Source: Owenia fusiformis (Eukaryota > Annelida > Polychaeta > Sabellida > Oweniidae). From it: 64,000 nucleotides of DNA. The DNA lies in NCBI GenBank assembly GCA_903813345.2, contig CAIIXF020000006.1, forward strand, positions 17,242,348 to 17,306,347, given 5' to 3'. Shown piece after piece: positions 5,401 to 50,628 of this stretch; the stretch's first letter is position 1; the number at the start of each line of letters is the position of its first letter. The notes under the pieces are model-generated. The model saw only the letters and a program-made list of their open reading frames with translations. It did not search any database and was not told the DNA's origin. A program made the position numbers and the translations under genes.

Positions 5401-8400
5401 CGATTGGAGGGGGAGGGGGATGTTAGACATTGTTTCTTTCCACGTTAGATTATGGTTTTGGGATATATAGGGTCTACTTTTCTTATGACAGATTTGCACT
5501 TGCGGTTTGCTTTTCTTGTTGGGTTTCTTTAATGTTTTTAGTCACCCTTCCCTTTGGCATTTGTGTTTATATATCCATAGATTCTTGTTTTGATTTGCAA
5601 ATTACCACCCCCCTTCTATGGAATCTCAAAACGCAAGTCCAAACATCATTCTTGTTTGGACTCCCCATGTGTGACCTAAGATTATACCCCGGTGCCCATC
5701 TATTCAATGCAGATATTGTCTTTGTGTTATGCCTTCAATTCTGCCACCCTTCTAACCAATAGCATACTGGCATTGGGGTCTATCAACTTGGTTGATTGAA
5801 TTTGTAGAGCCTTTTACCACATAGTTCAATGCAAGAATCTTCGCTCAACTGCAGCAGGTACTATATTCTAATAGTTAGTGCATTTCCTCTAAGTTTACTG
5901 TGCCACACCTTCCATAATTTTGGTGGTCATGAAATAAGGGATCATGCATTGAAATGCATTGAGATGAAGCTCCTAATTTCCCTTTCTTTGGGCTTGGATG
6001 AAGTATAGCAAGATTTGGACCAGGTCCATGTATCAACACCAGAATGAAGTTAGCCTTGTCTTCCCTGTTCAGCTCTATGAAGGATTTTAATCCTTATTCA
6101 GATCTAATGTTGAGGTTAATGTCATTTTGAATCTTTTTTTGAATTTTCATAGAGGGTTCTATTGAATACTTCAATTTTAGACCTAGTATATGAAGTATAA
6201 CCAATGATTAGACCTGTCATTGGTTCAAATCTGCAGAAAAACTAGTCAGGATATATCATATATTAAACCTCCGAGCTATGAAACAGTAGTAGGTACCAAT
6301 AAACTCTAAACCTGGAAATAATAAGGGTATTCTAATAGTGTACCTTAATACTGTCTGTTTAGACCTTTATTTGTAATGATTTTCAATGATTAAGCCTCTT
6401 AGATGGTTTTAATAAACAGAGAGTCAGCTCGGAATATGTCATACATCAAACTAATCTATGAAATCATATTCAATTTCAATTTGATTATTTTGGTCAATCT
6501 TGCATATTTTGCTTTAATATTTCAGAATTATTTACTTCATTTAATGTGAATTTTGTTGTGAACATTTAATGATAATCTGCTTATAAAGTAAAAAACTACA
6601 GCATTTTACAACACATGCCCCATGTGGCCACCACTCCAGCCAACGAAGCTGTTAATGACTCTCCTACACATACCAACATGGATTGCAAAGCTTCTGATGA
6701 AGCTATCCACTTAAAATTGAAGAACATCTGAGAATTTGTCTGACACTAGTTTTACTTCTCTAGATAGATTTTAGTCACGCCATGGACAATTGAACAACTT
6801 CCTTCGCCAGATTTGATTGTGCATGTAGAGGAGAAGTGGCCACATTGGACATATGTTGTAAAGTGCTGTAGTTTTTGACTCCACAGGCAGATTATCATGA
6901 AACTTTCACAACAAAATTCATATTGAATGAACTGAATAATTCTGAAGTTTTGAGGCAGAATATGCAGGATTGACAAAGTTAATTAACTTTTCTTCGGTCC
7001 TGTTTTTTGGACACCCTGTACCAGTAGAATGATACTAGGCTAATGGTATACTTGAATTTAATCGATTGCAGACCTATGATTTAAGAATGAATTTTCAATG
7101 ATAACACCTAAGATTGTTCAAACCACCAAAAAGCCAAGCCAGGATATATCATACATTATTTGTCTAAGCTAGAAAACTAATATTGGTACAAATATGTTCA
7201 TAAATAAGAAATTATAGGGGTCTTCCAAGGGTATACCTATAACTTATCAATTTTAGACATCATATTTCATGAATTTTTAATATTTGAACATGCTAGAAAG
7301 CTTAAATCTTCCTAAAACTTAGCTAAAATAAGTTTTATATTTTAGATTTATTCTAAAATGCCAAATATATGAACACAGAGGGATAAATGTTAAAGCAATA
7401 GGGGTCAGTTATAGTCACACATAAAATCAGTCCCAGCTAAAATGTCATTTTTTCTTAAATTCACTAATTTTTTTCAAGGCAATTATCAAATGAATTACTT
7501 TGATTCTTGCAGGATTAGTAGACCAGGTATTAAGCCTTTTACATGGATTTTTTTAGCATCCATCATTGTCTAATAAAAAAGTTATGACACGAAAAGTAAA
7601 AAATGGGTCATAAATTTGCCCCCTGGGGTACATACTTTTTGCTTTTATTCAAATTTCTTAAGTGTAATCCGTATCATTCATACTTTTAATGTTTATTTTA
7701 TACAATGTCCATGTATTTCACTTACAAAAACCATAAAATCAAAGTTATTTTAGGTTGACGAATATTTTCCCCCTGATAGGGGTGAATTTTGGGGGTAGGG
7801 GGACTAACATGGTATTTTAAGGGTTAAATAATCATATTTCAGCTTGCCAACATGGTTTTTTGGATTCAGCATAAAAAGTTACGTAAGAAACACTTGTCGG
7901 AACACTTTTAACACTAAACGCCTACCACATTTCCTCTAGATGAAAATGCACCTTGTCTAAAAACTTACCTGTCAACTTTTGAAAATATCACAGCATTTTT
8001 TAAAAGTTTGTTGAAATACATTGTATTAGGAGTACATTTTCTTTCAGGATTTATCATCTTTTGTGACAAAAAGTATAAAAGAAATAGACCATGTTATGAA
8101 TGTAGGAAACCAGAACAGATCTGTGGGGTAAGTTGCCAGGTCCACATCAGCTACAGTCATCTCCCCACTTGAAAATGAGAAAAATCATGAAATATTGGCA
8201 TATTTTGACCAATTTTGGTATGAATTGTGAAAATGAGAATTTAGAAAAAATCCTGTGGAGATCACTGTAATATGATCATAATAATCTCAAATGTAACTAC
8301 TACAGCATTTTATTTTAGGTGCAACACATATTTACAAGTTATACACAATACTATGTACAAAATCTCTCTCATTGTATTAACTTTGCTTGAGCAAAAATAA

Positions 8401-11400
8401 ATTAAATGAAATAGTGCTTAAAAAAATTGTAAAGATTTATTTACATGAACTGTATTTCATTTTCAATAATGTCAAATCATTATAAATAATTTTGTATTAC
8501 AGGGCAACAGCCATGAATGCAGACAGTTCTAGATCTCATGCAATCTTCATTATAACTATAGAATGTAGCTCGGTAAGTAAAACAAATACTAAAACAAGTA
8601 CTCTGATACATTAAATTAATGCTCTGAAATGACACTGAAAATAGGCTTGTCTGAACAACCATTTGCATCCTCTGAAAAAAGAGCGTATTTTGACTAATTT
8701 TGGTCAAAATAGTGAAACTTTGTTTTGAGATGTTGTGACATATTCATGAATGCAGAATTATCAAATGCAAGATATTTCATTGTAATCTTATGTCATAATC
8801 ATTATTCCTTAGTGCAATACTAATTTCTCACTAGAGTTTGATCCCTGATCTTGACACCTCGATCTCTAGCATTTTTAGATCTCTCTAATTAGATCCCAGG
8901 GTTGTAGCATTGGTAATCAGAAGTCTTATAAGCATTTTGAGTAAGTTTTATTGAGTCGGTTTCAAGGTTCCTTGGCATTTTGAGTAGTGTTTAACTTTGA
9001 GTAGTCTTTGACTGAACCTATGAGTGATGGCGCATAGCAGTTTAGTCTTATTAATGAAAGTTCAAATATAAAAACAATTTCAATAAAAAAAATATTCTTC
9101 GTGTCTAACCTAGTATTCACCCAAACAAAACAAATTTCTTAAACAGTGATTAAAGACCTGTAAATGTGTTAATTGGAGATTTAAAAATGGTTAGTTCAGT
9201 TTTAATTCAATGATTTTGTTTCCTTATAGTAGTATTGACTGGTGTATATTTGAAAAGATCGAGTAATAAAGTATACATTGTATATATTATTTCAAATATT
9301 GCTTGTTTGTACCTCCCAAACTTGCAGCAGGTAAGAATGGTCTGATTTTAAATGTACAGTGTATATACACCTTTCATCTGATTTAAGCATACACTGTATA
9401 CAAAACAAAAGCACAAAAGTACAGTATATATCACTTTAAAGGCCTTATACTTGTATTGCATCTTGTGTGCCAATGTGTTTTTATGTCACCACCACAAGTG
9501 GTGACATATTGTTATGGTCTCCAACATTTTGTGGACAGGGTTCGGTGGTTGGTGTCTGTAACAAATGGCAGGTGGTGACATTTTGTACGTTAATGCCTTG
9601 TACTCACCTTTGCTTCACTCATATATTTTTTAACTAGATGATTTTCAGAGACAATAAAGCCATTATTTGATTTACATATAATAATCCATGCCTTGATAAA
9701 AGCTTTTATCTTTCTCTAAACAGTTCAGTAAAAAGATTATCTCATAATTGATTATGATCAAATGATATAATTGGTTTCATTGTGCTGTCATAAAAAACAT
9801 CAAAAGTTTGCTTTTCTTTTCAAATAAAACGATCATTGAATGTGTCACTTTGATAATGGGATTAGGCTAAGCCAAGTGAATGTCAAACCAGGATTAATTG
9901 GCTGCATTATTGTCAAAAAATATCTGTGAAGCTAATTTAATTTGGCGCTTCTTTTATTTTATAAATTAGAACTAAACAAGCTTAACACCTTTTTTTGCAA
10001 ATTGGATTAACTAAAGTATTAACTACTAGAATGTAGATTTTTTCATACATGAGCAATCAACCAAGCTATCAACACTATATTCACCAGCCACTATTTTGAT
10101 ATACTTATTGAAAGAGAGAAGTGTATTAATTGTATTTATTGTATTTACAATGGACAGTCGTGGTAAAATTGACCATTTGGCAGAATTGAAGGAAGCAAGG
10201 AGACTGCAAACGAACAAGCGCCAAAGGGAACGTTATTGGCGTCGTAAGGAGGAAGCTAAGAAAATAAAGCTACAGGATAGTAATGCTGTTTCAGAAAATG
10301 CACCATCACACTGTGCAGATAAAACTGACTCTGCATCAGAAATTGTGCAAATAAAGAAAAGAAATGCCTCACAAGATGAAATATTGCCTTTGACAAATGT
10401 ACCTGCTAATGTTCAACAAAATGGACTAGTACCACAGGCCAATGTTCAACACAATGGAGTATTACCACCTGCCAATGTGCGACAAAATGGACTATTACCA
10501 AAAGCCAATGTTCAACAAAATGGAGTATTACCACCTGCCAATGTGCGACAAAATGGACTATTACCACAGGCCAATGTTCAACAAAATGGAGTATTACCAC
10601 CTGCCAATGTTCGACAAAATGGACTATTACCACAGGCCAATGTTCAACAAAATGGAGTATTACCACCTGCCAATGTGCGACAAAACGGACTATTACCACG
10701 GGCCAATGTTCAACAAAATGGAGTATTACCACTTGCAAATGATCAACAAAATGGACTATTACCACAGGCCAATGTTCAACAAAATGGAGTATTACCACCT
10801 GCCAATGTTCGCCAAAACGGACTTTTACCACAGGTCAATGTACAACAAAATGGAGTATTACCACCAGCCAATGTTCAACAAAATGGACTATTACCACCTG
10901 CCAATGTTCGACAAAATGGACTATTACCACCTGCCAATGTTCGACAAAATGGAGTATTACCACCAGCCAATGTTCAACAAAATGGACTATTACCACCTGC
11001 CAATGTTCGACAAAATGGACTATTACCACCTGCCAATGTTCGACAAAATGGAGTATTACCACCAGCCAATGTTAAACAAAATGGACTATTACCACATGCC
11101 AATGTAAAACCACCCTCATATGTACCACAAAATAAACTAGTGCTTCCAAATGATGTTCAGGAGAATCATATATTGCAGCCCGCCAATATACCCCAGCATG
11201 GACCAGTGCCCAGGAGGCTATCCTATAGGAGATATCACACAAGGTTACCACGGCGATTGCCTTTCACAACAACCAGAAACCACCGGAAACTAAATATCTG
11301 GACTAAATCTACAAACAGAATCTCAAGCCAACGAAGATCAAACATGGAGCATGATATTGAATGGTGCCCATCTGCAATACAGAAGAACGCTTACGTATCT

Positions 11401-14400
11401 GATCCCATGAGTAATCTGCAACGTCGTCATGTTAATACCAGGCTACTAGTTAGACCCCCATCAACAGCATTTACAGAGAACTCAACACACACCTCAGTGC
11501 ATGCATCAAAACAGAATGGCTGGAATAAGAACAGTAACAAGAGATCTGCTCAGACACACACTGCATCTAAACCAGCTGATAATGGACAGAATGCTGTCAA
11601 TGAGGATGCGAACCAAAGAAAGGCACGTGTTGCTGAAATGTCAATAGAACACGAGGATGCGAAAAGAGCTTTGAATGTTGTTTATAAGTTCATGCTAGCC
11701 AGACATGATATGGATGGCCAAAAGATGGTCAGACATGTGTATCGTTATGTCCGGCAACTCATTTCGAAGGACCAGTTTAAAGAACTACAGAATTTATTTG
11801 AACATTTAAAGTAACATCCACATGACTGGAGTTTGTAACCTCAGACATAAAATAAAAGTGATGTCCAATTGTTGTGAATTCACTGTTTTCAGATTCTAAT
11901 ATTCTGTGCTGATCTATATTCCGATATAATGAATTGACAAAATATATGGACAAATGCACATTTATCATGATAATTAATTTTGGTGGACATGGTCATCATT
12001 TTGAAAGAGACATTCTTAAATGTGTTTTGAACTGCCTTTACAGTACATTACAATGCACAGTACATTTATTTTACAGTGCATAGTACATCTATTTCAGTAT
12101 TAGTCATTTTCTTTGTTCTCTTGTTAAATCAAGTTGACAAATTTCAGTGTTAGTCATGTTCCATGTTCTCTTGTTAAATCAAGTTGACAAATTTCAGTGT
12201 TAGTCATGTTCCATGTTCTCTTGTTAAATCAAGTTGACAAATTCAGGAGGAGAAATGAGGAATTTATTCACAGTAGAGAAAAATCAAAAAATAGAACTAT
12301 GTTGTATGTAAATAACTGTTTTCTGATCTGATTATATGAAATATATAATTAATATAACAATCAATAAGGTCTTTATTGTTTTTAATAATGAACTTTTTTT
12401 CGCATCTACATGTACATGGTCATGTTTACACCAATAAGTGTCCTTTCCCATGCTTAGTGCTGTTGTCTAAAGTAATGATCACACCTATAATCATTTCCAA
12501 GAACTTATTACAAGATGGTAACATTTTTATTTTTTCATGTTAATTCTTTGTCTTCAATTATATTCACATGAGAGAGCAGTTTATATTATGACTGATACAC
12601 AACCTAGTCCCGCCCATCATCACTCATTGAACTTATTATGTCACCACCAGAAGTGATGACATATTGTTATAGTGACAGTCTCCAACTGTGGTTGGTCTTT
12701 GGTGGCTGTAATACCATTCAGTGTCTGTAACACTGTTTGGTGTCTGTAACAGTGTTTGGCAGTTGGTCGGCCATCTGTTACAAATGGCCAGTGGTGACAT
12801 TTTGCATATTAATGCCTTGTCTCTCATACATGTAATTGATATAGATCTCTCGTATTTAAAGTCTTCTTTTTAATAGATTTTGGGTGATTTGCATATTGAA
12901 CTACCTATTTTATATTAGAAACAGCTAAATTTACATATTTTGTTCAATCATGTACTAGATATGTTTATTCTTTGTAAAGAAAACTTCTGATTCAACAGTT
13001 AATTCAGAAATGGCATAGATAGCTTAATACCATTGATCATAACTTTGATCAACCCACTGTAAATCTCATCAAATCCTATCTCTCAAACAGAAATTTTTTT
13101 GTTAACGTCAATGGCAATTTATCCGAACCCTCTGAAGATCACTATGTAAATGCAGGGGTTCCTCAAGGTTCTTTATTAGGACCACTTCTTTTTCTCATTT
13201 ATATCAACGATTTGCCAGACTTAGTTAAATCACTGTGTTGTATTTATGCGGATGATACATCCATTTTTCGCGAATTTGATCCAGCAAATCCAAATCACTC
13301 ACTGGCTATTCTTCAAAATGATCTGAATCTGATTTCCAAGTGGTCTGATACATGGAAGTTATTTTTCAAAGCCTCAAAAAGTGCGGATTTGACATTTATT
13401 AAATCTAGGCAAGAAGCTCACGACCTTGCACCCTTATTTCTTGGAAAAGATGAAATTCCAAAGGTTCGATCTCATAAGCATCTTGGTGTTATTTTTGACC
13501 ACAAATTAACTTTTAATGACCATGCTAGACAACTTATGAGCTCTTGGAATAATGTTGATCAATCTTTCTCCAAAATAAAAGAATTCTTGCATTTTAAATA
13601 TCGCCTTAAGAATTCCATTCAGGATGAAAATATATATACATGTATCATTCCAACTACTTAAATGCTTATCTCAAGAAAGAAAGAAATCGCCTTAAATAGA
13701 CTTAGGGTTGATTTATTTCTAAATGCTCACTTCTTTGCTCACAATTTTAATTCAGTCTTATCCCCAGCTTGTTTATGTGGAAATAAAATAGAAGACAGCA
13801 AACATTTCCTTCTCAATTGCACCCTATACAACCCCCAAAGGAACAAACTTTTCGCAGAGCTTGCAAAATTCAATGTATTTGATTATTTCAAGCAAATGAA
13901 TATGACAAACAAAGTTAAATTACTTCTGTTTGGAAATTCTAATAAAATGAATTTCAAAACAAATGAATCTCTGGCACACGCAATTTCAGATTTTATAGAA
14001 TCATCAAACAGAGGTCAGACTTTGTAAACATCCTTTTCATGTCCTAGTGTCACCTTCACCATCATCATTTCATTCTTCATACTCATTCATTTTATCACAT
14101 CTTTTTTAAATTCTTTTTTACATTTATTTTCCAATCAAGTTATTGCCTGGATGTATTTTATCTATTTGTGAATATGTCTGTAATGCCTCAGGGTGATTGA
14201 CATTATTACACTTTGTTAATTGTAATATACTATTCATGCAATAAATACTATTAAAAAAAAAATTGATCATAACTGGCTTCCAAAAAGATTAGTATTGAAG
14301 CACGAGTGATGTAGCCAATACATGAGGTGGCTTATTTTGTGTGAGCTGTCAAGTAAAAAGTACATTGCATGAAATTCATGATATTTCTTGTAAAATGCCA

Positions 14401-17400
14401 AATTCCAAGTTCAACACCTTACCAAAACTAGGCATTGACATTCCATTAATGATTACTGAATTTGATTTTCATCTTAACATTGTTTGTTTGCTTTCAGATA
14501 GGGCCAGATGAAGAGAATCATATACGTGTTGGCAAGTTGAACCTGGTAGATCTGGCGGGGAGTGAGAGACAGGCAAAGACGGGGGCAACAGTAAGTCAAT
14601 GTTTATTTGGGGAAATAAATTAGATGTTTCAATTTGGTTTCATTTGGTCACGTTTGATAAATAGCATTTTTGATACAATATATGAATAAATTTTCTCGAT
14701 TGGATAGGGCTGTATCATCAAACATAAATGTTGCATCATCTGAAACTGAAATATTGTGTTTTCATTAACTAAAATGTTCAGTCATATTCATCTTAGCTTG
14801 ATGCCAGACATTATGTGCAAATATATCACTTCTATCTGTTTTATACATATAACTGAATCAATCCATTTCAGGGTGATAGATTAAAAGAGGCGACTAAGAT
14901 CAACTTGTCTTTATCAGCCTTGGGTAATGTCATATCAGCGTTGGTGGATGGCAAAAGTTCACACATTCCATACAGAGACTCAAAACTTACAAGGTTGTTA
15001 CAAGGTATGGTATCAAAGTTAAACACAACAAACCTGGTACAAGCAGAATTAAGGTTGATCTTAGTAGAATCTCCACTGAAAAACAGGAGTCGATGTTGAA
15101 TTATCAAAACTTAATTCAAGCTTGTCTCTGGCTTAATTTGTTCTTGTGGTTGATTCAGTGTTTAGAAAAGTTTTCTGTTTAAAAAGAGATTTTAGTTATC
15201 TTGATAAGCTGGTGATATTTTTTGGTGAGACGATAGAGGAGATGAGTTGGTTTTTGAGCGAGTTATTTTTACATTGTGTTAAGATATATGAAAATAATAC
15301 ATGTACATATAAATATAAATGTATGTTGTAATATAACTCATCAATGATTGCATGATGGTACCACTAGCTTCCAAAAACCTTTTTGCATTTGGAATACTCA
15401 TTCTTATCCTGATTCTAGATGTGCTTATTTTTCTGCTGATTGCCCATCTGTTTTTGAGAAAATATGTATGAAGTTATATGCTATTCTGTTTGTAGATTCA
15501 TTGGGTGGCAATGCAAAGACTGTAATGGTAGCAAACATTGGTCCAGCAGGCTGGAACTTTGATGAGACAGTCACAACACTAAGGTAATGATTTACAACTA
15601 TGGATTTAATGAAAAGGGATTTTCAAGAATGTTGAGTATCAGTGATCCACTAATGTTCTTATACTCTGTGTTATTGAATATCCCAGTGAAGTTTATATTC
15701 AGAGACTCTAGACCTCTCTATCAGATTGATTATTTTTTGAAATGCAAAAAGAAAATATTTTTAGATTCAAGATTCAAAATTGCAGTTAAAGATGTATGTT
15801 AAATGCAGGTATGCCAACAAAACAAAAAAACATCAAGACTAAAAAGGCAGTAATGGATAATAAAAAGAACACTATACTCATATATTTTTCATGTTCTCAT
15901 AATTTATAGATATGCCAACAGAGCCAAGAATATCAAGAATAAGCCCAAAGTTAATGAAGACCCCAAGGATGCACTACTAAGAGAATTCCAGGAGGAAATA
16001 GCAAGGTAAGAATATTTTGTAAACATACAACTCTTAAATGTCATTAGTATTAGAGCCTTCTGATAAAAATGTGAAAATGTGTAAACTGCAAAGTCAAAAA
16101 CTGATGGATCTTTTGTTAAACAAGCAACACTTAAATGTCATTTGTATTAGAGCCTTCTGATAAAAATGTGAAAATGTGTAAACTACATAGTCAAAAACTG
16201 ATGGATCTTTTGTTAAACAAGCAACACTTAAATGTCATTTGTATTAGAACCTTCTGGTAAAAATGTGAAAATGTGTAAACTACATAGTCAAAAACTGATG
16301 GATCTTTTGTTAAACAAGCAACACTTAAATGTCATTTGTATTAGAATCTTCTGGTAAAAATGTGAAAATGTGTAAACTACATAGTCGAAAATTAATGGAC
16401 CAAATGGTGAAAAAATGTCTGGACCAGGTGGTGAGAGTGTCTTGACCAGCTACTGAAAATGTATGGACCAGATAGGGAAAATGTCTAAACCAGACAATGG
16501 TAGTGGTAGTGAGGCTATCCAAAAGAGGGGAGTTGGGCTCTTTGTACCATTGATTTGATTTACCTATCTCAATTTCAGACTAAAGGCACATCTTGATGGT
16601 AAAGGGGGCCCAAGGAAGAAGAAAGGTAAAAAGAAGAAACGTGAGAGACGCACTGGACCAGATGGAGAGATACTATCTGAAGGTGAGGAGAGTTCAGAAG
16701 AAGAGGGTGAAGGTGACAGTGAAGATGAGGAGGAGTTTAGGAAACAACAACAGGAAAAGCTGGAACAAGAGAAGAAAGCTATCATGGAGAATACGCAGCT
16801 TATTGCAGAGGTGATCACATACTTTATTTTTGATTTTCTGAATAAAAATGATGTAAGATTTATTGAGGTTTTCTTGAAAGTCTTTTCTAAATTAATGTGT
16901 TTTACGAGAAATTAGGCTTTGTATTGGTTGACATGAACTTGAGAATATACATATGGTATAAGACACACTCATTCAAACTTTTTCTTTTCTGGAAGCTTTT
17001 ATGCAAGAAATTTTTTAGATAAAATGAATGTCAGTTTTGTTGTATTTATCAAGTTGGATTGATCAAACATCAGTTTTAGCAGACATATTTTGTTTGTGTA
17101 ATTGATCTTTAGGGTCACACAATGCCTTGTGTATAATAATGTTATATCCATTAATTCAGTACAAAGACCTTGAGCACTACAGGTCACAGTAAACACTTGA
17201 TAAGACATGCATAATAGAGTGGAAATTCTATGTACAGAAAACATGTAACATGTTAGAAATTAACATAAACATTTCACATTACTCTCCAGAATTTCTTTTC
17301 CAAGGCAAGTTAAAATTCAATAAATTTCAGTAATACAATTAAATGTAAATATTTCTGGAAATTTGTTCTGACAAATAACATCTGTATTCCTGGCCACATA

Positions 17401-27031: not shown

Positions 27032-30000
27032 TTATTTCACCTTCTTAGTGGCTGTTCCGATCTGGCACTGGTTGACCTGGAATATATGGAAAATATTTTT
27101 GAATGGCAAAAATATCAGCTATTTCTGACCAAAATAATATAAAATTTCACCACCTGGCTTCAATTATAAAAGTGTAACCACTTGTTACAGACACAGAATG
27201 TGCAATGTGGAACACATGTCACATAAAGGACTGGTGGGTATAACAATAATAAAACTTGGCCCTTTTTAAAGGGAAACAATTAAAAAACTATGTTTCAAAA
27301 TAGATAGAGCCTGATCCCTTGCTTTATTATATTATTCATATATACGTATATTGGTGTCTGTGTGAAGAATGTTTGAGTTAATTAACAATCCAAGAATACA
27401 ACTAGTGTCCATTACATATTCAGGTATTTATCCCTTCCAGTAAACAACCTATGCTGCCTTTAACTTTAACATACAATGCTGTACATAGAAAAATACATAT
27501 TATCAATTCATTAAATCCATTTAAAATACATTTTTATATAAACTTTTCAAAAGTGCGATATCACAACATTTATTATACAGACTTCTCAAAGCAGAACACT
27601 GGTCTAATCAGAAATCAACCGCCAGATATTCCCTAAAACCCCACAAGATTTGTATAGAAATAATTGTCATATAAACCTACCTTTGTTGCAAATCTCAATG
27701 AGCACAATGTCTCATTGAAACACTCTTCTTTAGGTGACACATTAACAAACATGAGTGTCTTGCTGTTTCCACCAAGGGAGTTCTGTAGTAGATAAGTCAG
27801 CTTACTGTTTCTGTATGGTATATGGGGCTCCTGTAATAATAATAGACATTTTGTTAATAAGATCATCATTTAACAATACATGTATATCATAGAGGTAGAT
27901 GATTCTGACCTACAAGGGTCCTGAAATGACAAAATTGCATCTAATTTTTTTTATATACCATAGAAAATACAGTAAACTCTGTAAATCTGAACCCCTCTCT
28001 AATCTTAAAACACCTCCCTAAACACCTTTTTAATCTTCTGTAGACTCCAATGTTAAAAATCTGTGCAATGTGAACACTTGAAAATCTGACCACTCTTGGC
28101 CAGTACTAGTGCCTTATACAGGCATTACAAACAAGAACGGCCTAATTTTAATATATGAGTCACAGGGGATTTCATAAAGATATTTATTACCTTATTGGCA
28201 AGAGCCATGATGACATTGCCAAGGTTACTGAGACTCTTGTTAATAGCCTGAGTCTCCTTTAGCCTTGCTCCCTCAGATTTTGATTCCTTTAGTCTCTCAC
28301 TACCAGCAAGGTCAATCAGATTCAATGTACCTACAAGATATAGTGAAGATTCAAAGCTGGAGATAAATTACATGTACTCTTTTGAAAGAAAATAGATGCT
28401 ACACATTTTTTAACTTAACAACTGGGTGCACTGGTACCACTCAGTTGTTTTGATGCTCGGGAGCAGATCGTCTTTCAATAAACTTCTTTTTTCGCACACA
28501 GTTGGGAATCATTGACTCAAAATTTCTTTAACTAAATGATGTGAATGCACTTAATATCATCTTGATTAAAGAAAAACCAAGCGTAATGCCTTAGTTTCAG
28601 TAATCATCTTACCAATTGATCCCTCAGATGTGATAGTGTTGGTGCCTGTAAGTTTAAGTCTGAACACACTGTGGCTTCTGCTTGATCTCTCATTACACTT
28701 GGTCTCTGCTACAGCACGGTTCTGTGCTGCCTTGCTCAACAAATTGCTCACCTAAACATAAAACATAAATCTATACATTATGGCTTCTGCTTGATCTCTC
28801 ATTACGCCTGGTCTCTGCATCATTGATGCATTTACCCATTTACACTCCCCCAAAAAATTGTAACTTGGTCTCTGCTACAGCACGGTTCTGTGCTGCCTTG
28901 CTCAACAAATTGCTCACCTAAACATAAAACATAAATCTATACATTATGGCTTCTGCTTGATCTCTCATTACGCCTGGTCTCTGCTACAGCACGGTTCTGT
29001 GCTGCCTTGCTCAACAAATTGCTCACCTAAACAATTCATATAATCTGAATACATTGTGACTTCAAAGAAGTTGGAAGAGTCATAACTTTAGGTTTACATT
29101 AACACAAGTTTTAAAATGAATATCCATGTTGAATATTGATATAAAATTTGATTTAATTCAAATTTATTTGGGTCAATGTCTAAAATATATTAAAAGGTAG
29201 TGACGAAATTTAAAAAATCAAGAAATGTTTTATAATTACAATTTTTTGGGGGAGTGTAAATGGGTAAATGCATCAATGATGTTGAATATTGATGTTGCTA
29301 CTTACCTGTTTTGGTGAATTAACATTGATGTAAGTAAGATTGGTGACATTGACATCATTCACATTAGGCACCATCTTGATTTCATGCTTCAGATCTTCTT
29401 TTCCTGACCCTAGTAGATCCCGGATTGTCTCGTTGTAGATCTCGAGGAAGGACGCCTGCATCTCATACTACGTGACAAACAATGGACTTGTAAATATTTC
29501 AAGACAACAAAGAATATATAAAATTGGTTTGTAACTGGATAAAGAAAAGAAACTGATGGTTTTTGTCGAGCATATACACTGTAAGTACGGAAAAAATGGA
29601 CAAAAGTTTCAACAATATCGTAATAATTTCAATAAATAGGATCAATGTAAAACTCATTTAGTATGTAACTAGATGATTTTGTTGATGCAAATTTCCCTTT
29701 ATCATTGTGGTCAAATTTTTAAGATACAAACATACATACACCTGTGTAACAAAGCCTCTATAAATACTTTCTTTATGTGAAACATCTTATATAAATAATG
29801 CTATCAATTTTGCAACATCCAGCTAATATCAAATGTTTCTACCATACCTTCCAGCCTTTATCCTCCAAATCACTTGCATTCTTAAATATCTGCTCAACTG
29901 CCCTGGGGATCATTCCTGCATTCTCTGGCTCATTCTCTCCTCTGCCCTCCATAGTAAATGTCTTACCAGAACCTGTCTGTCCATATGCGAATATACATAC

Positions 30001-36120: not shown

Positions 36121-36344
36121 ATTTATTAATCATTGTGTAACAATATCAATGTCCACAGATTCTATGTAGGGATGGCACCAAAGTCCATTGGTCTCTTTAG
36201 GGAGATACTATATCCTAAAGGAGAATTGACCTACTTAGTAATAACTAATGTACATCTACTTTGGATCCAAAATCAAGCCTATAATGAGGCAAATGCAGAT
36301 TACCTCCTCCCCCTCAAATGCTAACATTTGCACACCATATCTTA

Positions 36345-36712
36345 AAGACCAAATGAGTGGAATAAATAGGCCAAATGAGTGGAATAGGTAGACCAAATGA
36401 GTGGAATAAATAGACCAAATGAGTGGAATAGGTAGACCAAATGAGTGGAATAAATAGACCAAATGAGTGGAATAGGTAGACCAAATGAGTGGAATAAGTA
36501 GACCAAATGAGTGGAATAAGTAGACCAAATGAGTGGAATAGGTAGACCAAATGAGTGGAATAGGTAGACCAAATGAGTGGAATAGGTAGACCAAATGAGT
36601 GGAATAGGTAGACCAAATGAGTGGAATAAGTAGACCAAATGAATGAAATAAATAGGCCAAATGAGTGGAATAGGTAGACCAAATGAGTGGAATAAGTAGG
36701 CCAAACTAGATG
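36345..36712. repeat. 22-bp minisatellite
   Basis: About 17 copies of a 22-base unit GACCAAATGAGTGGAATAGGTA, with G/A variants, are present. Outlying units stand at 35565-35590 and 37947-38010, so the array once extended further and was split by the element at 36737. Because 22 is not divisible by 3, the minus strand is open in all three frames with a 22-residue periodicity (YLFHSFGLPIPLIW). I regard these frames as non-coding. Confidence 0.95.
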
Positions 36713-36736
36713 ATGGCAACTCCGAGGAGTAGCAAA

Positions 36737-37945
36737 TCCCAACGAACAAAATATCAATTACCGAATTCCAATCAATTATACTCATTACTTTGGTTAAAAT
36801 TGAAAAATTTAGATTTTAGAATTGCGAATTCCTGCAAAGCAGCCATTTTGAATTTTCTGAGGTACAAATCTGAAAAATAATACCATAATTGTGATCTACT
36901 CAAAAATTCCTTCAATTTGAGTATTATATAGCCATACGTTGAAGGGATCGAAAAATTATTGCGAAATCGTACATTAGACGGCCATTTTGAATTTTACGAG
37001 GCTCGAATCAGAAAAAAGATACAATATTTGCAATCTACTCTTAATTGCCTTTGATTTGAGTATAATAAAGCTATACTTCAGAAAGATCTACAAATTAGCG
37101 AAAATTTCTGTTTTCCTGACCCCCCATACACGGCCCCTGGGGGTCAGGATGAAAAACACTGAATATATGTGGAATAGATAGATGTTGCGAATATACTACC
37201 AAAATTTCAAACAATAATATTAATTACTTTGGTTTAGAATGAAAAATTTATGATTTTTGCGAAAAAGTCCCGCCATTTTTAAAGCGGCGGCCATCTTGAA
37301 AAAATCCATTTTGAATTTTCTGAGGTACAAATCTGAAAAATATTACCATAATTGTGATCTACTCCAAAATTCCTTCAATTTGAGTATTATATAGCCATAC
37401 TTTGAAGGGATCGAAAAATTATTGTGAAATCGTACATTAGACGGCCATTTTGAATTTTACGAGGCTCGAATCAGAAAAAAGATACAATATTTGCAATCTA
37501 CTCTTAATTGCCTTTTATTTGAGTATAATAAAGCTATACTTCAGAAAGATCTAAAAATTAGCGAAAATTTCTGTTTTCCTGACCCCCCATACACGGCCCC
37601 TGGGGGTCAGGATGAAAAACACGGAATATATGTGAAATACATAGATGTTGCAAATATACTACCAAAATTTCAAACAATAATATTAATTACTTTGGTTTAG
37701 AATGAAAAATTTATGATTTTTGCGAAAAAGTCCCGTCATTTTTAAAGCGGCGGCCATCTTGAAAAATTTTTTTTTGCGTAAAACTGTTTATCAATATACA
37801 TCTTTCCACCAAATATGAAGAAAATCCGTCAACTAATATTTGAGTTATCTTCCGGACGGACAGACGGACGGACGGACGGACTGACGGACTGACGGACGGA
37901 CGGAGGGCTTCACTATATCCCTACCGAACTTCGTTCGTTGGGATA
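36737..37945. mobile_element. Element with TCCCAACGAAC termini, internal duplication and GACG tract
   Basis: The left end TCCCAACGAAC and right end GTTCGTTGGGA are inverted. A stretch of about 466 bases is tandemly duplicated inside (36843-37306 and 37309-37775, starting CCATTTTGAATTTTCTGAGG). Both copies share CCTGACCCCCCATACACGGC and GCGGCGGCCATCTTGAAAAA. Near the right end is a (GACG)n tract at 37856-37907. It interrupts the 22-bp minisatellite in the large KIFC1 intron. It encodes no protein. Confidence 0.8.
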
Positions 37946-41579: not shown

Positions 41580-43901
41580 TTTCTACCTGGGTATATGGCC
41601 CACATTTCTCTATAAATACAAGTTGGAGGTATAACAGTGGAGTAATCATGGGCGAACAGTAGTGATTTTTCCTTTCATATCAAGTAATGTTACTTACTTT
41701 CAATGAAAATATGAGTCACTAAAATAAATGCATGCCACCTTTAACTCCTCTGCAATTCATTTTTCTAATCAAAATCAAGAGTTCTAATTTTAAATTATTT
41801 TCTAATTTTCAGTGAGGTCTACTTTTTTATTTTTTCAAGTGGATTTTCAATTAATGAGAATTATTCTTATTTACATTGTTCAGAATGCCAAATCTCTAAA
41901 TCCTGCTTTCCATTTATATCCTTAGAACCTCGGAATGTTTTTGATTACTGTATTTACATCTCTCATTGTTACAGCTACAACATAACAAGATGGTTGAACT
42001 TGTAACTTGAGCACATCTTCAATTCAAGTATGGCAACTCTAAGAACTCTGCTGAAGATTTCATGTAGAGCTCCAAAAATGAAGTACATGTTAGACATTCA
42101 TTCAATTCAATAACATGTGGCAATATCTAAATTACTTTGGGAAATCAAATGGAAAACACTTTTGTTAGTTACTTTAATTATAGTCTAGATTGTTTCACAG
42201 AGTGACTGGCATTAACCATTGGAGACCTTGGCTTTTACAGAAAAAATCTTCTGGGTCTGAATATTAAATATACCCTTTATGAGGAGTTTGACTTCATATC
42301 TTTGAAAGAGTGTCTTGTCTATATAGAGGATAGAATTTTATTACAGACCTCTGGTGTCAGGGTAGAATATAAGAGATACATTATTCTACTCTGAAATGTG
42401 GTTAATCAGAATTTTCTTTTTCATATACTCTATCATTATCCATAGATGATTTGGAAAAGGTATTCTAGCTAAAGGTAAAAAGGTTAGCTTTTCAAAGATC
42501 TAAGTGTCCCTAACCAATATTTAACTAAGATGGGTTTTACAGTTCCATAAAAACTGTAGGTTTATTGCTTTCAGCCCAATGTCTACTGTATTATAAGACC
42601 ATGTAAGGAAAATTGAATAGCAATTCATTCAAGGATATGTCATCTTTTATCTTTTTAAATTTCAACTACTACCATTGAATTCTTAATTCAGAAACTATAT
42701 GCGTCCCTCTTTATATTCCAACTGTCTGATCCTGAACTTAAGTATTTCGTGAAGCTGAAAAGTATATACAAACAACTGAATTTTTAACAAAGTCCCATTT
42801 ATAAAATGTATATATATTCAATTTGTTTCATTTATAGGTTTCTACTGTTGAATTAACTCTTCTATTATTGATGTTTAGGTTTTTACATTTCTTAATGGCT
42901 GTCAAAACTGTTGAAATGCTTTTATGGAACCTATAAATTAACTTTTCAAAATGAGTTCAAAACAAAATGAATTTAAAAAAGCTAATTCATAGTTAATTCT
43001 TAAGGACATGCCATTCACATCACTTTCATATTTATTCTTATAGACCAAAAATAGCTTATCAAAGTTTATCTATTTATTAAAATTCAATCACTTGCGTGAC
43101 AAAAAATAACATTGAATAAACCGATTCAACAAATGCATTCAAATACAAAATAAGAAGACTATAATATGATATCTTTTATAACTTAATTAATTCTTTTATA
43201 CTGAGATAAACTGACACAAAGGTCAGGATAACCTCCTTATATAAATAGATAGATAAAATTACCAGGCCTCCAGAGAGTACAATACAGTTGTTGTTATATG
43301 TATATGGGGCCATGATGCCACAATGCAGGAGTCATGGCAACTATATATACCTATGTCTCCTGAGGGAGAAACCTGATACGATAAGTCTTGTGCAAGTATG
43401 TGTTTTTTATGTATATGAATAAATAAATAACGGGTACTTTGGAGCCATTTTTGGGGGGCTCTCCATTAGACTGTACTGTAAAAATTGCAGAACATACTTA
43501 GATTTTAGATTAGGTATGTTTTTTCTGAGCCAGCTGGCAATGCGCAAACTAATACCGTATAATCAAGTTATGTGGTATATATACGCTAATACACATACTG
43601 TACTATCATGTAATATGTTGACTGACTTTATATGATTAACATGGAATGTTATGATCTGATGATATGATGTAATACCATAAGATGTACATTTTTGTACAAC
43701 ATTTTTTTTATCATACTTCATTGAGAGATGTACATGTACTGTACTCTCAACACATTTCCCCACCCACTTTTTCCTCAATAATTTACAATCAATTAAGTAT
43801 ATGTCATCCTAACTATGAAAGGACCATCCTTCCAACCCTCTAACTACTGCTATTATTTTCAAAATATTGATTCACAAACAATATAAGAAGGCATAAACAT
43901 G

Positions 43902-44040
43902 CAAAATGTCACAACCTGCCATTTGTTACATATGCTGAACATTGAACACTAATCGCTAAATGCTGTCTGCTGATTGCAAACACCATCCACAAAGAAGTTG
44001 GAGCCTATATTACAATTTGTCACCATTTCTGGTGGTGTCA
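43902..44040 (-). mobile_element. GTCACCAC-type MITE, copy 4, reversed
   Basis: ATGTCACAACCTGCCATTTG at the left and TTTCTGGTGGTGTCA at the right match the family in reverse orientation. It lies about 170 bases downstream (in gene sense) of the donor of the 44213-45209 exon. Confidence 0.6.
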
Positions 44041-44212
44041 AAAAAGTGGTTACTTCTGAGAAAAAATTATGACAACCAAATATTTTGTTGTGTAATTTCT
44101 AAAAACATGCTCCTTTAATAACCTATTTTCTAAAGTCATTGTATCCCTGCTTCTTTTACATTAGATGACACACAAAATGAATAAAAAGAAACTGGAAGTA
44201 AAAGCAACCCAC

Positions 44213-45209
44213 CTTGTTCATGTGATGTAGGAGTGGAAGTGGGTATTCTAGAGATGAAGTTGTTTTTGTTGTAATCCTCTTCATCCTCATGACTAGCTGA
44301 GCTATGCTCATAGTTGGAACATTCTGAGTTCTCTAATCTACATTTATGGCTACTACATCTGTTACTATGGCCACCATTTTGGTTGCTATGGTGTTCAGTT
44401 TCTAGGTTGTCATACCGACAGTTACATGGGAGATTTTCTGATTCTGATAAGGCACCGTTTTCTAGACTAGAGTTCAATGAAAAGGAAATATTACAGTTTG
44501 TTGAATGTTTGGAACCGGAGCATTTACAATGCACGCCTGGTTTAGATTTTAAACGTGATATCTGGAAGAACTTCTGGTACTGACGATGCATATTCTGATA
44601 AACTTTCTCCAGCTCTTTATCGATTTCACCATATTCCTGTATGTCTTCAAGACAGCCGTTGCCCATTATTGGGGCAGAGGCGACACTTTCTGGAAGACTT
44701 TCACAGTCAGTGTCATCATCACCATTACGTTTTGGCGTTGAAGTATACATCCCATTAACAACGCCATTGTGTAATCCAGCGGCAGGGTCAAAGTCAGATG
44801 ATTCCGTGCCAGGTAAGCTACTTGTATCGCTACTGCCATCTTCTGACCACGAAGGTCGCCGCTCGTGAGCAGAGTGCGTTCTATCATATCCTGGAGTAGC
44901 TGATAATTTAGGTATCCCAGATTGCCTTCTTTTTTCACGTTTTGTAAACCCGGATATTTTCAAGGCATGTTGTGGATTCGCATATGGTGATTCATATGTG
45001 CCATCGAATGATGCGCTACGTGCCACACCACCTTTAAATCCAAAGTCATTGTAATGTCCCGTATTTCGTCTGGGCATGATGTCAGATTCCTTTATGATAG
45101 TAGTACCGAGGCCACCCCAAAGACTCTTCTCGTTGGAGATCTGCCGACGCACCCGCTGAATAATGCTACTCCCACTGGCTGGCTGTAACCCCATGGTAGA
45201 TGATGGCAT
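44213..45209 (-). CDS. Large first coding exon, probably the KIFC1 tail
   Basis: The minus-strand ATG at 45209 (MPSSTMGLQPASGSS) has an in-frame TAA 30 bases upstream, so it is a credible start. The frame stays open for 332 residues to a donor (CAAG then GTGGGT) at 44213 and ends in phase 1. The exon at 35803 begins with the matching phase, and the joined model is 2739 nt, exactly 912 codons plus stop. The peptide is serine-rich, with a basic patch (REKRRQSGIPKLS), a helical piece (EIDKELEKVYQNMHRQYQKF) and a Cys/His-rich C-terminal part (CKCSGSKHS, CNCRYD, RCSSHKCRL). Kinesin-14 tails are basic and bind microtubules, but this one is about twice the length of the vertebrate tail and I see no sequence match. 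It could instead belong to a separate gene whose later exons I did not find. Confidence 0.6.
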
Positions 45210-48200
45210 AATTATACAAATCGGTAGAAATGAAATGACTTATTTCTTACCAATATTCAATCACCAATAAGTCAATATATCATCCCCATCATGCAGGTTT
45301 TAATCATTCATTCCCAGCATGCCATGTCATTCTCAGTCAAATGTTACTCTAGTCTTAAGTACACACAATTTGCCAAAATGCTTTTTCTAGTTTATCAATC
45401 CTCTGGGAGTACTCCAATTATTGAAAACAGTAGCCAATAGGTCTATGTGTCTCATCCAGTAATTAGATTGTATATTGGAGCTGAGGTAGTATTTGTAAAT
45501 GTTTCCAGATAGTCATATCACCATGCATATAACTCTTAAAAATCCTTATGGAAAAACACTGTCAAAACTTATGATCTCAGTAAAAATTCAACAGGATTTG
45601 ATTCCCATAAGTTTTATATATCCGAATAGTTGTGACAGAATGAAGTTAGAAAGTCTATAAAAAATTAAAAACAGACAAATATATTATCCGGCTGTGTTTT
45701 ATGCATGCCAAAATTGCTCATGATCTTCCCTCTATATGGCATTACACCCTGTGGTTGTAGTCCTATATAGAAAAAGATTGGCACCAGCTTTTTAATTGAA
45801 ATCATTAGTCCTATGGTTCACCATTGAAGAATGATCTCAAATGGATACTTAATACCTACTAACACTCAACTGAAGTGATGTAGTATAGTCTAACATATAT
45901 TGATGTATTGTTTCAATCCTTTTGTTTTATTCATACATATGCTGTAAACTTCAGTTACTCTGCATCGCAATTATCATCTGTATGCAGCATTTGTGCTTTA
46001 TCACCTGACTGTATAGTATTTCTCAAAACAAGTCCCTCACTTGTGATATAACCTTATCTAGAAAATGTATTTTCTCGAAATTCAGTTCCGATTCTATATT
46101 TAGACTTCAGGACTATTCCGAATATAAGATTTTGTCTTATAAAGAATGTTGTTTCCCCCAGAGGTTGAGATGTTGAGACTTAGGTTAAAGTAACCACTAG
46201 GTTGCATATAGTAACATTAAACTCCAGTTTCCTTTCTGACGTTTGAGTTATCAGTTTTCAAACAGCCGGCGAATTCAAATCTGAACCTCTGTTTTGAAAA
46301 TATGTTTTACCGACTATAACACTATTAATAATGTTACAGGCTCACTGAATTTGCATCATGATATAAACGTCCCCTAAATGTATTAATTTAACGTATCACC
46401 TGGCGTTTGGCCATCAGGCCAAAGGAACTGACGACATTAACAACATATTTGTGTCATTTGTATTCTCTGTTTGCTGGAGCTTCCAATTAACTCCTCCGTA
46501 AATATTCTAACCGTGTATCAGCAATCTCTTTGTTTCAGTTCTCCCTCAGTGGTTATTGGAAAGTATCCTATAAGTTCACGCTAACTCAGGTAGCTTTATA
46601 ACATTGAATTAATCTTTAATCTATTCTGATTATTTATTATTCATAGAGTTAATAGCCCATCGTTGGAGTAAAAGTCACATTTCTTTTCTTTTTATTGATC
46701 AATTTATTTTAAAATATCCAAGTGAAAGAGTCATAAGGGCTGTTTTCCGTTGCCTAAATGCCTACTCAATCTCAATCCGAATTACGTGATAAAATGTACC
46801 AAATATTCTCCAAGTGTTTGAGTCAATAACATTTTGTCTGTTTTTAAGTTTTTTCAAAAAAAAATGACGGTTGAATTTAGTGTGCCTTCAGTATTTTTTT
46901 CAATGCCTCCACCTACCCTTATTATTTCTTGCTCCTACAAGACATCCATATTTTTGGCGTCTTCTATTGTAAGTACACAATGATATTTACAAAATCAAGA
47001 TCACTCATAATCGACACATTAAAGCAACTGGCTACCTCACCCTGATGGAAATAACATGCCACACTAAAGAAAATCTTTTTTCACCCTGACAAAAGCTTGA
47101 AATATTGAGACTATTTGTCCAAAATAGATAAAATTAGGATTTAAACCTAGTTGAGAAAAACCTTGGGAGATCACTGAAGATTGTGGCAGAGGGAATAAAA
47201 TTCTACTTGCTGGATACCCAGATGTATCTGGAAAGTAAAAATACCTCTATGATTACATTCCGTATCCAGGAAATAGCTTAAAAGCAGCTTTTATTATGTC
47301 AAGAGGATTGTGTACAAAAATAGAAGACCACCAAAATTCACTTTTTAACTTGAATAAAATCATCTCCATGTATATGTATCCCTGCAGGTAATATCAATTA
47401 ACTATATGTATAAATTATATATTTGATTAATTAATCAAGCAGCCTTATCAATTTCTAAAGGTGAACTTCAAAAAAGACACACCAAGGCAACGTTGATATA
47501 AAACCAAGCATAAAATAGCATAAAACACATTCGGTTTCTAAATTATAACATTTTTCGAGAGCAATGAGTACATAGTTCATGTGTATGACCACCCGTTCAA
47601 TACTTCTAAATTATCATTAAATACATTGTAATCTCAGTTAATCCTTCTTAAAACACGACCCTGTATTATACAAAGCATTACTCAAGATGTAAAAGTTTAA
47701 CCTTTGTTGAATCATCAAGCAAACTTAAAATATTTATCAATTTAAAAATGAACTTTTTGAAAAGAATATGATTTATTACTGAAGTAGGAGGATCAATTGT
47801 ATTCTGGTGATTAGGATTAAATGATTGATTCTTTTGCTGTTTTTTTCTAATTTAGTTTCTTAATTTCCATTAGTTCTCTTAGTCTGTAATTTCTAATAAT
47901 TGTTTTCAAAATTTCTTAAAGTTAAAAATTCAACATTTTGGAACATATAAATAAATGGTTTAAAAAAATAGAATGAAAATATAATAAAATCATCCTGGCC
48001 CTACATTCATAAGATTAGGCACCTTAATAAGAGGACGAACCGTGTACCAATCATGCAGGAATATACCCATCATGCACTTTAACCTAAAGGAGGATGAATT
48101 ATATAACCATCATTAAGGATCACTTGCGATTGAAGAATATAGATGTTAAAGACATTTATTTACTGATGCAATTCTTAGACTATATTTAAATTTCTTTATC

Positions 48201-50523
48201 TTAACCTTAATCACAAAGTGCATATTCCCATATATATTTTCTAATGTACAGTGTACATGATTTAATACAAGTACAATCATAAAAGTGAATCATACAGACA
48301 CTGGATCCTGCATGTAATCCAGATGACATCTACTATCTCCAACAAAACCACAAATATGGGGAACAGTACATTGCAAAGCCACTAAATATGGCTCTGGCCA
48401 GACAAATAATAACAAGTTGTAAATGCCGACCTGGGACTTAAAGCAAGCGACAGCATAATACACCCCCTTCATCAGTTTGGAAACCAGTTAAGTCCCAATT
48501 AGTTGGTGTGTCAAATGAATTTGTTCCTCAGTTTCAATAGATTGGATTTGATGTTATAGTTGAAATTAACAAACGGTAAACGGCTTTAATAATATTCATA
48601 ATCTGAAATGGAACTACCAGTTGCTTAACTTTTGAAGGGGAATGTATTTATCATGTTATAAGTTGGGAAATATTTCACCTGAAAACATTGAACAGTCTTA
48701 CCTTATTTCTACATGTCATTTACATAAGGATCAATGCCTACTCAATCACAAATACATATACAAATCCTAAATCATCTTTCTAAAATAGCATCCGAAATCA
48801 TTAAGATCCTCATATAAATGGTCTCCAATCTCTGCCTCAATATAAACATGAATCCAATAATGTCTCCTCTGTATATGTACATGTATGTTAATATTTGTTG
48901 TAACTTCAGCTATACCCCTTTGTTTCATTACATCCGTAATTAAAATAATTAACAATTGTAATTACTGAATGACAATTTAAACAAGAGTTAAACTGTATTT
49001 TGCATACAGCTATTCGTATATATGCTCAAATGTACATTTTCACAATTAAAATTGGGTCCTTTTTTCCGAAGAGAAAATCTCACAGAGTATTTAATGATGA
49101 CATAACCAAGATGTGGAAATTAGGGTCATAACATGAATGGTTTAATTGCTACATTTAATGAGTATTGTGTTGACTGTTAAGGTGATCCTCATTAGAAAAA
49201 ATAGGCCAGGAAATATTAGAAATATTATAAATATTAGGCAAGCAAGTGGTATGTACAAATTGATGATCGAGTAATGCTTTTGATAATTCTAGGGCAATTT
49301 ATACATCAGGGAAGTATTTTAGCGTTTCTTCTGACAAATTGATTTCTTTGTGTAAATATAGTATTTTTGGTGTTTGCTACTTGAATGTTAAATAAGAATT
49401 TTAAACTGTCTGAATAGTTATTACTCATTGATAGACAGCATAAAACAGTTGTTACAAACCTTCAATAATAAATAAATAATAAATAAATAACTACTACTCA
49501 ACATTGACTACTAGACTTATTTCTGCGGAACAAATTGAAATTATAGAAACATAAAACACGACTGAAAACATATCTGTAATTGGTATAGCCTTAGTAATTA
49601 AAATTAGGTTTCAAGGTGTCACAATGTTTTACCCTACAACATTTCAGTCCTGTATGTAACAGCTGGTCAGTAAAATATATTTCACATTTATCTCCACATT
49701 TCACAGAAATTATTCACCTAATTATAGAGAATGCTTCAACTCACATTTTTGAAAGGATTTTAATGACGAGCCAAATGCAGAAAAATCGCAAAAACACGAC
49801 TGAAGATGAGTTTCTTTGTGTTTTTGTTTAGCAATGTCACTAATGAAGTTAGCTTGACCTATCTTAGCTACATATTTCCCGTGAATATGCATGCATAAAG
49901 TGCATGCAATTTGGCTGATTTACTTGTCTTTATTCTTAGCATATAATTCTTTTGATGAATCTGTCTTAATTTGCTCTAAGTCAAAAATACGACAAGGAAA
50001 TTGAGTTGTCAAATTATATGAATTATATCATTTCAAAAATGCAAATGATGTCAAAAGGTTGAATTCATGTAACAAAGGTGAAACTTGCCCATAAACTAAA
50101 ATCATGACATCTAGGTTTTAAACATGAAATAAAATAAACAAACTTCCACTACCGTGAAAAAAATATCTAAATATAAAATATACACTCTGAATTGTACAGA
50201 AATGTCATAAGAGCAGGGACTTCAGAGAAATAAGAGGGAAAGATATGATTTAAGAATGAACGAGGTAATATTTTAGACATGTCAATATGGCCGCTGGTAT
50301 TAGCTCTAACCTCAACATATGTTAAAAATTGCACATGACAAAATATGGTTGTGTGTGAGAAGAATACAAAATGATTGATTTTAAAGTTTGCAAAATCTTG
50401 GCATCTTTTTTCGATAAAATTCTGGAATAAATGTTCAACTTCCAAACTTTGCATGCAGCTTTTGAAATATTATCAACTGGCTATGAACAAACAAGTAATA
50501 AACAAAGAATTAACATGCTAAAT
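45210..50523. other. 5' flank of the minus-strand gene and gene-poor region
   Basis: AT-rich DNA with no accepted gene. The promoter of the 45209 start should lie in the first kilobase; no clear motif stands out. A TGGGAGATCACTG at about 47164-47176 looks like an orphan right end of the CAGTGATCTCC family. An AATAAATAATAAATA microsatellite lies near 49470. Confidence 0.5.
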
Positions 50524-50628
50524 CTCACTACCTACCATTTGTTACAGACAACAACTGCCAAACACCAATCACCAAAACCAACCATCAAACACCGTCCAGA
50601 AAAGTTGGTAACCATAACAGTGTTGTCA
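50524..50628 (-). mobile_element. GTCACCAC-type MITE, copy 5, reversed and truncated
   Basis: CTACCTACCATTTGTTACAG through GTCCAGAAAAGTTGG to TAACAGTGTTGTCA follows the family in reverse. It stops exactly where the TTAA-flanked element begins, and the terminal GTGGTGAC is missing on the far side of that element. Confidence 0.55.

Follow-up and report, generated by a model that had tools for sequence, protein, structure and literature searches.

Within a 64,000-nucleotide stretch of the genome of the annelid Owenia fusiformis (assembly GCA_903813345.2, contig CAIIXF020000006.1, positions 17,242,348 to 17,306,347 of the forward strand; hereafter the window, numbered from its first letter), an intronless open reading frame (ORF) at 10150-11814 on the + strand appears to be an independent protein-coding gene lying in sense orientation within an intron of the kinesin gene KIF3B, a reading to which a probability of about 0.6 is given. 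From the sequence, the presence of an intronless coding frame nested in KIF3B on the same strand is well supported, and this frame is likely to be a real translated gene. As an arrangement, a gene within the intron of another gene is ordinary in kind; in the figures given by one account, nested genes represent about 10% of the genes in Drosophila and about 1% in human, two thirds of them on the opposite strand (PMC4394429). Like other intron-nested animal genes, the present one would be a complete coding unit lying within a single intron of a host gene to which it is unrelated, but it differs from them by belonging to the same-strand minority class, by carrying a long and near-perfect tandem repeat and by falling in no recognised family.

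The host gene was recognised from 13 pieces on the + strand, which we take to be kinesin-2 exons. A 190-residue piece joined by hand from six of these exon pieces, taken from both sides of the intron considered here, gave human KIF3B (3b6u) as its best match in the PDB (E 4.1e-96), with six PDB sequences at E <= 1e-50 and KIF3C behind 3b6u at 4.2e-75. The intron itself extends over 5,925 bp (8573-14497, + strand), is in phase 0, starts with gtaagt and ends with ttgctttcag. Because of these intron bounds and of the KIF3B exon matches, the frame at 10150-11814 is placed on the sense strand inside the KIF3B intron. In a later KIF3B intron, four open stretches encoding near-identical peptides recur every 97 bp at 16038-16442 and correspond to a tandem repeat.

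The frame runs from ATG to TAA over 554 codons plus the stop codon, without any stop or frameshift inside. Upstream, the open stretch reaches back to 10030, the first in-frame ATG being the one at 10150, in good start context (ACAATGG); when 9332-10152 was scanned, no ATG upstream of the start was found after 10049. An AATAAA poly(A) signal stands at 11851-11856 on the + strand, i.e., 36 nt behind the stop. The frame also stands out by its base composition, with a GC content of 0.39-0.44 in 300-base windows over 10250-11749 vs 0.26-0.36 in windows over 8000-10099. An earlier note, written from the sequence, had described a same-strand intronless frame of 554 codons inside a KIF3B intron, with about 21 repeats of 11 residues and a poly(A) signal behind it, and each of these elements was recovered in the present analysis.

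Whether such a frame is coding has to be judged from its unique ends, since the openness of the repeat is no evidence of coding: a stop-free 33-bp unit keeps frames open trivially, and other forward frames are also open over long parts of the repeat, e.g., for 225 codons in the second frame. This is also the point from which one could argue that the frame merely happens to be open around a non-coding 33-bp satellite that is expanding. The chance openness of the ends was estimated with first-order Markov sequences of each end's own composition over 200,000 trials, of which 1,050 left the N-terminal end (83 codons) open and none the C-terminal end (204 codons, 11200-11811). In addition, the training set of a codon model comprised 868 codons from the window, 521 from KIF3B exon pieces and 347 from a long minus-strand ORF at 44160-45200 whose identity is not established. 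For both ends, frame 1 came top of the six frames, with 0.419 bits per codon for the N-terminal end, vs a maximum of 0.170 among 1,626 sampled non-coding window-frames, and 0.149 bits per codon for the C-terminal end, vs a maximum of 0.024 among 1,518. The openness of the non-repetitive ends, as claimed in the earlier note, is thus confirmed and does not look like chance, which leaves the satellite explanation scarcely credible. Within the repeat, where 20 of the 21 units were used, the distinct variants are suggestive of coding, 8 of 19 being synonymous vs 25% expected (P 0.08); the other two frames give 1 of 19 and 5 of 19. Over codons 1-10 of the unit, third positions hold eight of the 14 distinct variant letters.

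The predicted protein (61.9 kDa, isoelectric point (pI) 10.83) is basic, with 71 Lys and Arg vs 34 Asp and Glu, and contains two Cys. Its unique N-terminal end (residues 1-85, 10150-10404) has a pI of 9.61 and reads like a helix for nuclear localisation or nucleic-acid binding; inspection by eye, made without a signal-peptide tool, shows no hydrophobic leader. A second, strongly basic stretch at residues 351-395 (11200-11334) holds 13 Lys and Arg with no Asp or Glu. As for the C-terminal 84 residues, a single-sequence AlphaFold2 model of medium confidence predicts four helices (11599-11808) with a mean predicted local distance difference test (pLDDT) of 68.5, and the comparison of this model with PDB folds by Foldseek returned 47 matches, none at E <= 0.001. 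The basic N-terminus proposed earlier is borne out by composition and the helical C-terminus by a predicted model.

Between these ends, 21 units of 33 bp follow one another without indel at 10405-11097, with the consensus ANV[Q/R]QNG[L/V]LPx. Residues 2, 6, 7 and 10 (Asn, Asn, Gly and Pro) are invariant in all 21 units, residues 1, 3, 5 and 9 each deviate in a single unit, and residues 4, 8 and 11 hold most of the variation. With Tandem Repeats Finder, the 66-bp period outscores the 33-bp period (1151 vs 1039) because units of the QQ..V and RQ..L types alternate; the final seven units follow a three-unit order. Behind the array, three decayed 11-residue units could be aligned by eye at 11116-11214. 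Homogenised core units with decayed edge units are expected from unequal crossing-over, and in this respect the protein resembles lineage-restricted tandem-repeat proteins in general; it differs from them in that its unique ends score like ordinary coding sequence, its C-terminal end being modelled as helices. It was matched to no named protein of this type, and four words of the repeat sequence had no occurrence in the literature searched.

Database searches brought few leads. In Pfam, TCTP and DUF5412, and for the repeat MshEN, WTF and MF_alpha_N, were rejected as all were under the curated cut-offs. In NCBIfam, the whole protein listed CsgB, CsgA, DivIVA and ATP synthase B, each under its cut-off, and the N- and C-terminal ends alone listed no match. 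PHROGs returned weak matches of unknown function, the best at E 0.0038 for the N-terminal end, while the sequence search of the PDB gave nothing for the C-terminal end and two matches for the N-terminal end (E 0.3 and 0.53). Scans of IMG/VR with the C-terminal end, the N-terminal end and the repeat gave 1, 4 and 0 pattern matches, and a scan of the GTDB species genomes with the repeat only gave 14, none of which was confirmed by tblastn in either collection. A tblastn search of phage records found eight with 21.4-24.5% identity over the repeat at E 0.02 or worse, five of them in tape-measure genes, and these were set aside as an effect of composition. The gene is best read as lineage-restricted; since the libraries searched hold no eukaryotic genomes, the family may be a known one in relatives of the organism and the term orphan is unproven.

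The one resemblance deserving scrutiny is that of the repeat to the curlin kernel of bacterial curli proteins. In one description, this kernel consists of an Asn followed by psi-x-psi-x-Q at spaced positions, with an X-G-X-X arc and a QX10Q spacing (PMC10192328). In the terms of the same description, the present unit carries psi-x-psi-x-Q, then X-G-X-X, and the QX10Q spacing (PMC10192328), the motif positions at residues 1, 3 and 5 deviating in one unit each and the Gly in none. In NCBIfam, the repeat scored 88.7 bits against CsgB and 52.6 against CsgA (88.8 and 40.4 for the whole protein), and phmmer against the PDB with a 241-residue query, i.e., the repeat with short flanks, retrieved the CsgA R15.5 structure 8c50 at E 7e-12, the one other match being at E 1.5. 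The best AlphaFold2 model of the repeat further shows a three-residue strand in 20 units. Taken together, one could then propose a curlin-type beta-arch solenoid, i.e., an amyloid-like polymerising protein arisen by convergence.

Several results speak against it. The NCBIfam scores are far under the cut-offs of 165 bits for CsgB and 160 for CsgA, Pfam has no curlin model at E <= 10, and the kernel Asn is replaced by Pro, codon 10 being Pro in 21 of 21 units; 1.7-3.4% of shuffled units also contain a kernel without the Asn. Nine controls were run against NCBIfam: the unit permuted in seven fixed ways, the array reversed, and one full shuffle. CsgB was listed for three of the nine with at most 18.8 bits, and one control matched an unrelated family with 60.7 bits. 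Three permutations and the reversed array were also run against the PDB, with best E values of 3e-4, 1.3, 2.5e-5 and 3.7e-10 vs 7e-12 for the real repeat (controls of 231 residues, real query of 241). The last of these values belongs to the reversed array and to a Rab-family protein, which presumably bears leucine-rich repeats. Because rearranged controls also score high against other families, periodic sequences are seen to inflate such scores. As for structure, the five AlphaFold2 repeat models have mean pLDDT values of 63.3, 61.2, 52.8, 40.6 and 39.6, and against PDB folds the best match is at E 2.9e-3, none reaching E <= 0.001, with 8c50 at rank 10 (E 0.09, template modelling score 0.14). 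Homology to curlins by descent was rejected after the rearranged controls, the likeness being treated as convergence or chance. Respective to CsgA and CsgB, the repeat thus shares the 11-residue spacing with psi-x-psi-x-Q-x-G and QX10Q, but it has a Pro for the kernel Asn, stays under the curated cut-offs, lacks a Pfam curlin match, is flanked by basic unique ends and has scores not clearly above those of controls. The likeness is a lead rather than evidence of membership, and the polymerising solenoid is very improbable.

The way the nested gene would be expressed can be sketched from the surrounding signals. Its own promoter would lie within about 8.6-10.1 kb; a TATAAA word stands at 9960. 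A strong donor, CAG|GTAAGA (9328-9336, + strand), would end an exon at 9330 and stands directly behind TTGCAG, so that 9320-9336 juxtaposes an acceptor and a donor. On the + strand of the window, [AC]AGGTAAG[AT] has five matches, three being KIF3B exon ends (2562, 16003 and 19847) and two not (2117 and 9328). The donor at 9328 may be either a recursive splice site or the end of a non-coding exon in the 5' untranslated region (UTR). An acceptor-like stretch ending in CAG (10068-10087, + strand), with 8 of 12 pyrimidines, would leave a 62-nt leader without ATG and is a possible 3' splice site for a 5'-UTR intron, which might then cover 9331-10087. The transcript would end near 11870, and every normal splicing of KIF3B would remove the nested unit along with the intron.

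Two other explanations accept a frame at this position and dispute its status as an independent gene. In the one, the frame is recently dead or derived from a mobile element, i.e., an unexpressed retrocopy or captured element gene in the intron, whose repeat is still expanding by slippage. The lack of a family match would fit, as would the company it keeps in the intron: a truncated reverse-transcriptase fragment at 13023-14024 (+ strand; RVT_1, E 5.6e-14) made of two stop-separated open stretches, and two interspersed-repeat copies flanking the frame at 9478-9601 and 12631-12820, whose hairpin heads form an inverted pair (9482-9508/12637-12663, 27 nt, 81% complementary). The same repeat, of MITE (miniature inverted-repeat transposable element) or SINE (short interspersed nuclear element) type in appearance, has two further copies at 43888-44047 and 50502-50619; its hairpin head, GTCACCACC...GTGGTGAC, was observed in the two copies that flank the frame. 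Since there are four copies in both orientations with a self-complementary head, the inverted pair does not necessarily mark the end of an element, and a composite transposon made of the two flanking repeats was put aside given the four copies in the window and their two orientations. Against a dead or mobile frame stand the 554 codons without stop or frameshift, the absence of an element domain in the frame in Pfam and NCBIfam and, for a retrocopy, the absence of a genomic A-tract behind the poly(A) signal; the longest direct repeats common to the two flanks examined are of 10 bp (three pairs). This explanation is unlikely, while keeping more weight than any other alternative. In the other, as the earlier note had wondered, read-through as far as the poly(A) site inside the intron would make the frame an alternative terminal exon of KIF3B, giving a truncated motor with a repeat tail. 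The shared strand, the phase-0 donor at 8572/8573, the frame open from 10030, the internal poly(A) signal and an in-frame acceptor candidate at 10053 (9 of 12 pyrimidines) speak for this reading. However, the acceptor at 10053 is a GAG, and GAG acceptors are a poor class; for the other in-frame AGs between 10030 and the ATG, at 10065 and 10116, the tract holds 5 and 6 pyrimidines in 12. The frame also starts from an ATG of its own with a good context, and the truncation would fall within the motor domain and therefore yield a broken motor. The terminal exon is weakly disfavoured because only the GAG at 10053 has an acceptor-like tract and because the frame has its own start context, and overall it is improbable.

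An independent nested gene is thus retained as the preferred reading, with several points that weigh against it. The case is made from the sequence of this window, and a gene that had died recently would pass these coding tests as well. The codon model learned from just those 868 codons, 347 of them from the ORF of unestablished identity, and its comparison is somewhat generous because the model background included some of the null windows; within the repeats, the excess of synonymous variants falls short of significance. With 1.9 AATAAA per kb on the + strand of this AT-rich window, the signal at 11851 alone is weak evidence. Searches of Pfam, NCBIfam, PHROGs, the PDB, IMG/VR and GTDB species genomes, among which there are no eukaryotic genomes, confirmed no relative, and the function is read from composition alone.

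As regards this function, the N-terminal basic helix and the basic stretch at residues 351-395 might direct the protein to the nucleus and hold nucleic acid there, the C-terminal helices might bind a partner, and the 21-24 repeats might act as a spacer, the length of which would shift by unequal exchange of 33- or 66-bp units. Such a nuclear, nucleic-acid-associated spacer protein is a tentative proposal, with the odds rather against it. Far more speculative, and close to a long shot, is the version in which an independently evolved curlin-type beta-arch repeat, with Pro for the capping Asn, lies between nucleic-acid-binding ends and forms an intracellular, possibly nuclear, polymerising solenoid, expressed from the KIF3B intron and varying in length among individuals by 33/66-bp exchange.

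Elsewhere in the window, a 50-bp tandem repeat (3.1 copies, 96% matches) lies downstream of the frame at 12091-12243. On the minus strand, the stretch 27700-30000 carries motifs from the motor domain of a second kinesin, and three SSRSH-bearing pieces at 28685-28960 resemble a locally duplicated exon; a tandem repeat at 36256-36815, open in all three minus-strand frames, is probably non-coding; and a 367-codon open frame at 44136-45239, with no Pfam match at E <= 0.1, is probably a large exon of another gene.

If expressed, the frame at 10150-11814 would give a ciliary motor gene a nested gene on its own strand and would offer a clean case for studying sense-strand interference together with repeat-length variation. 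The resemblance between its repeat and the curlin kernel provides a modest structural lead that is cheap to test. Otherwise, the protein would be one among many lineage-restricted repeat proteins.

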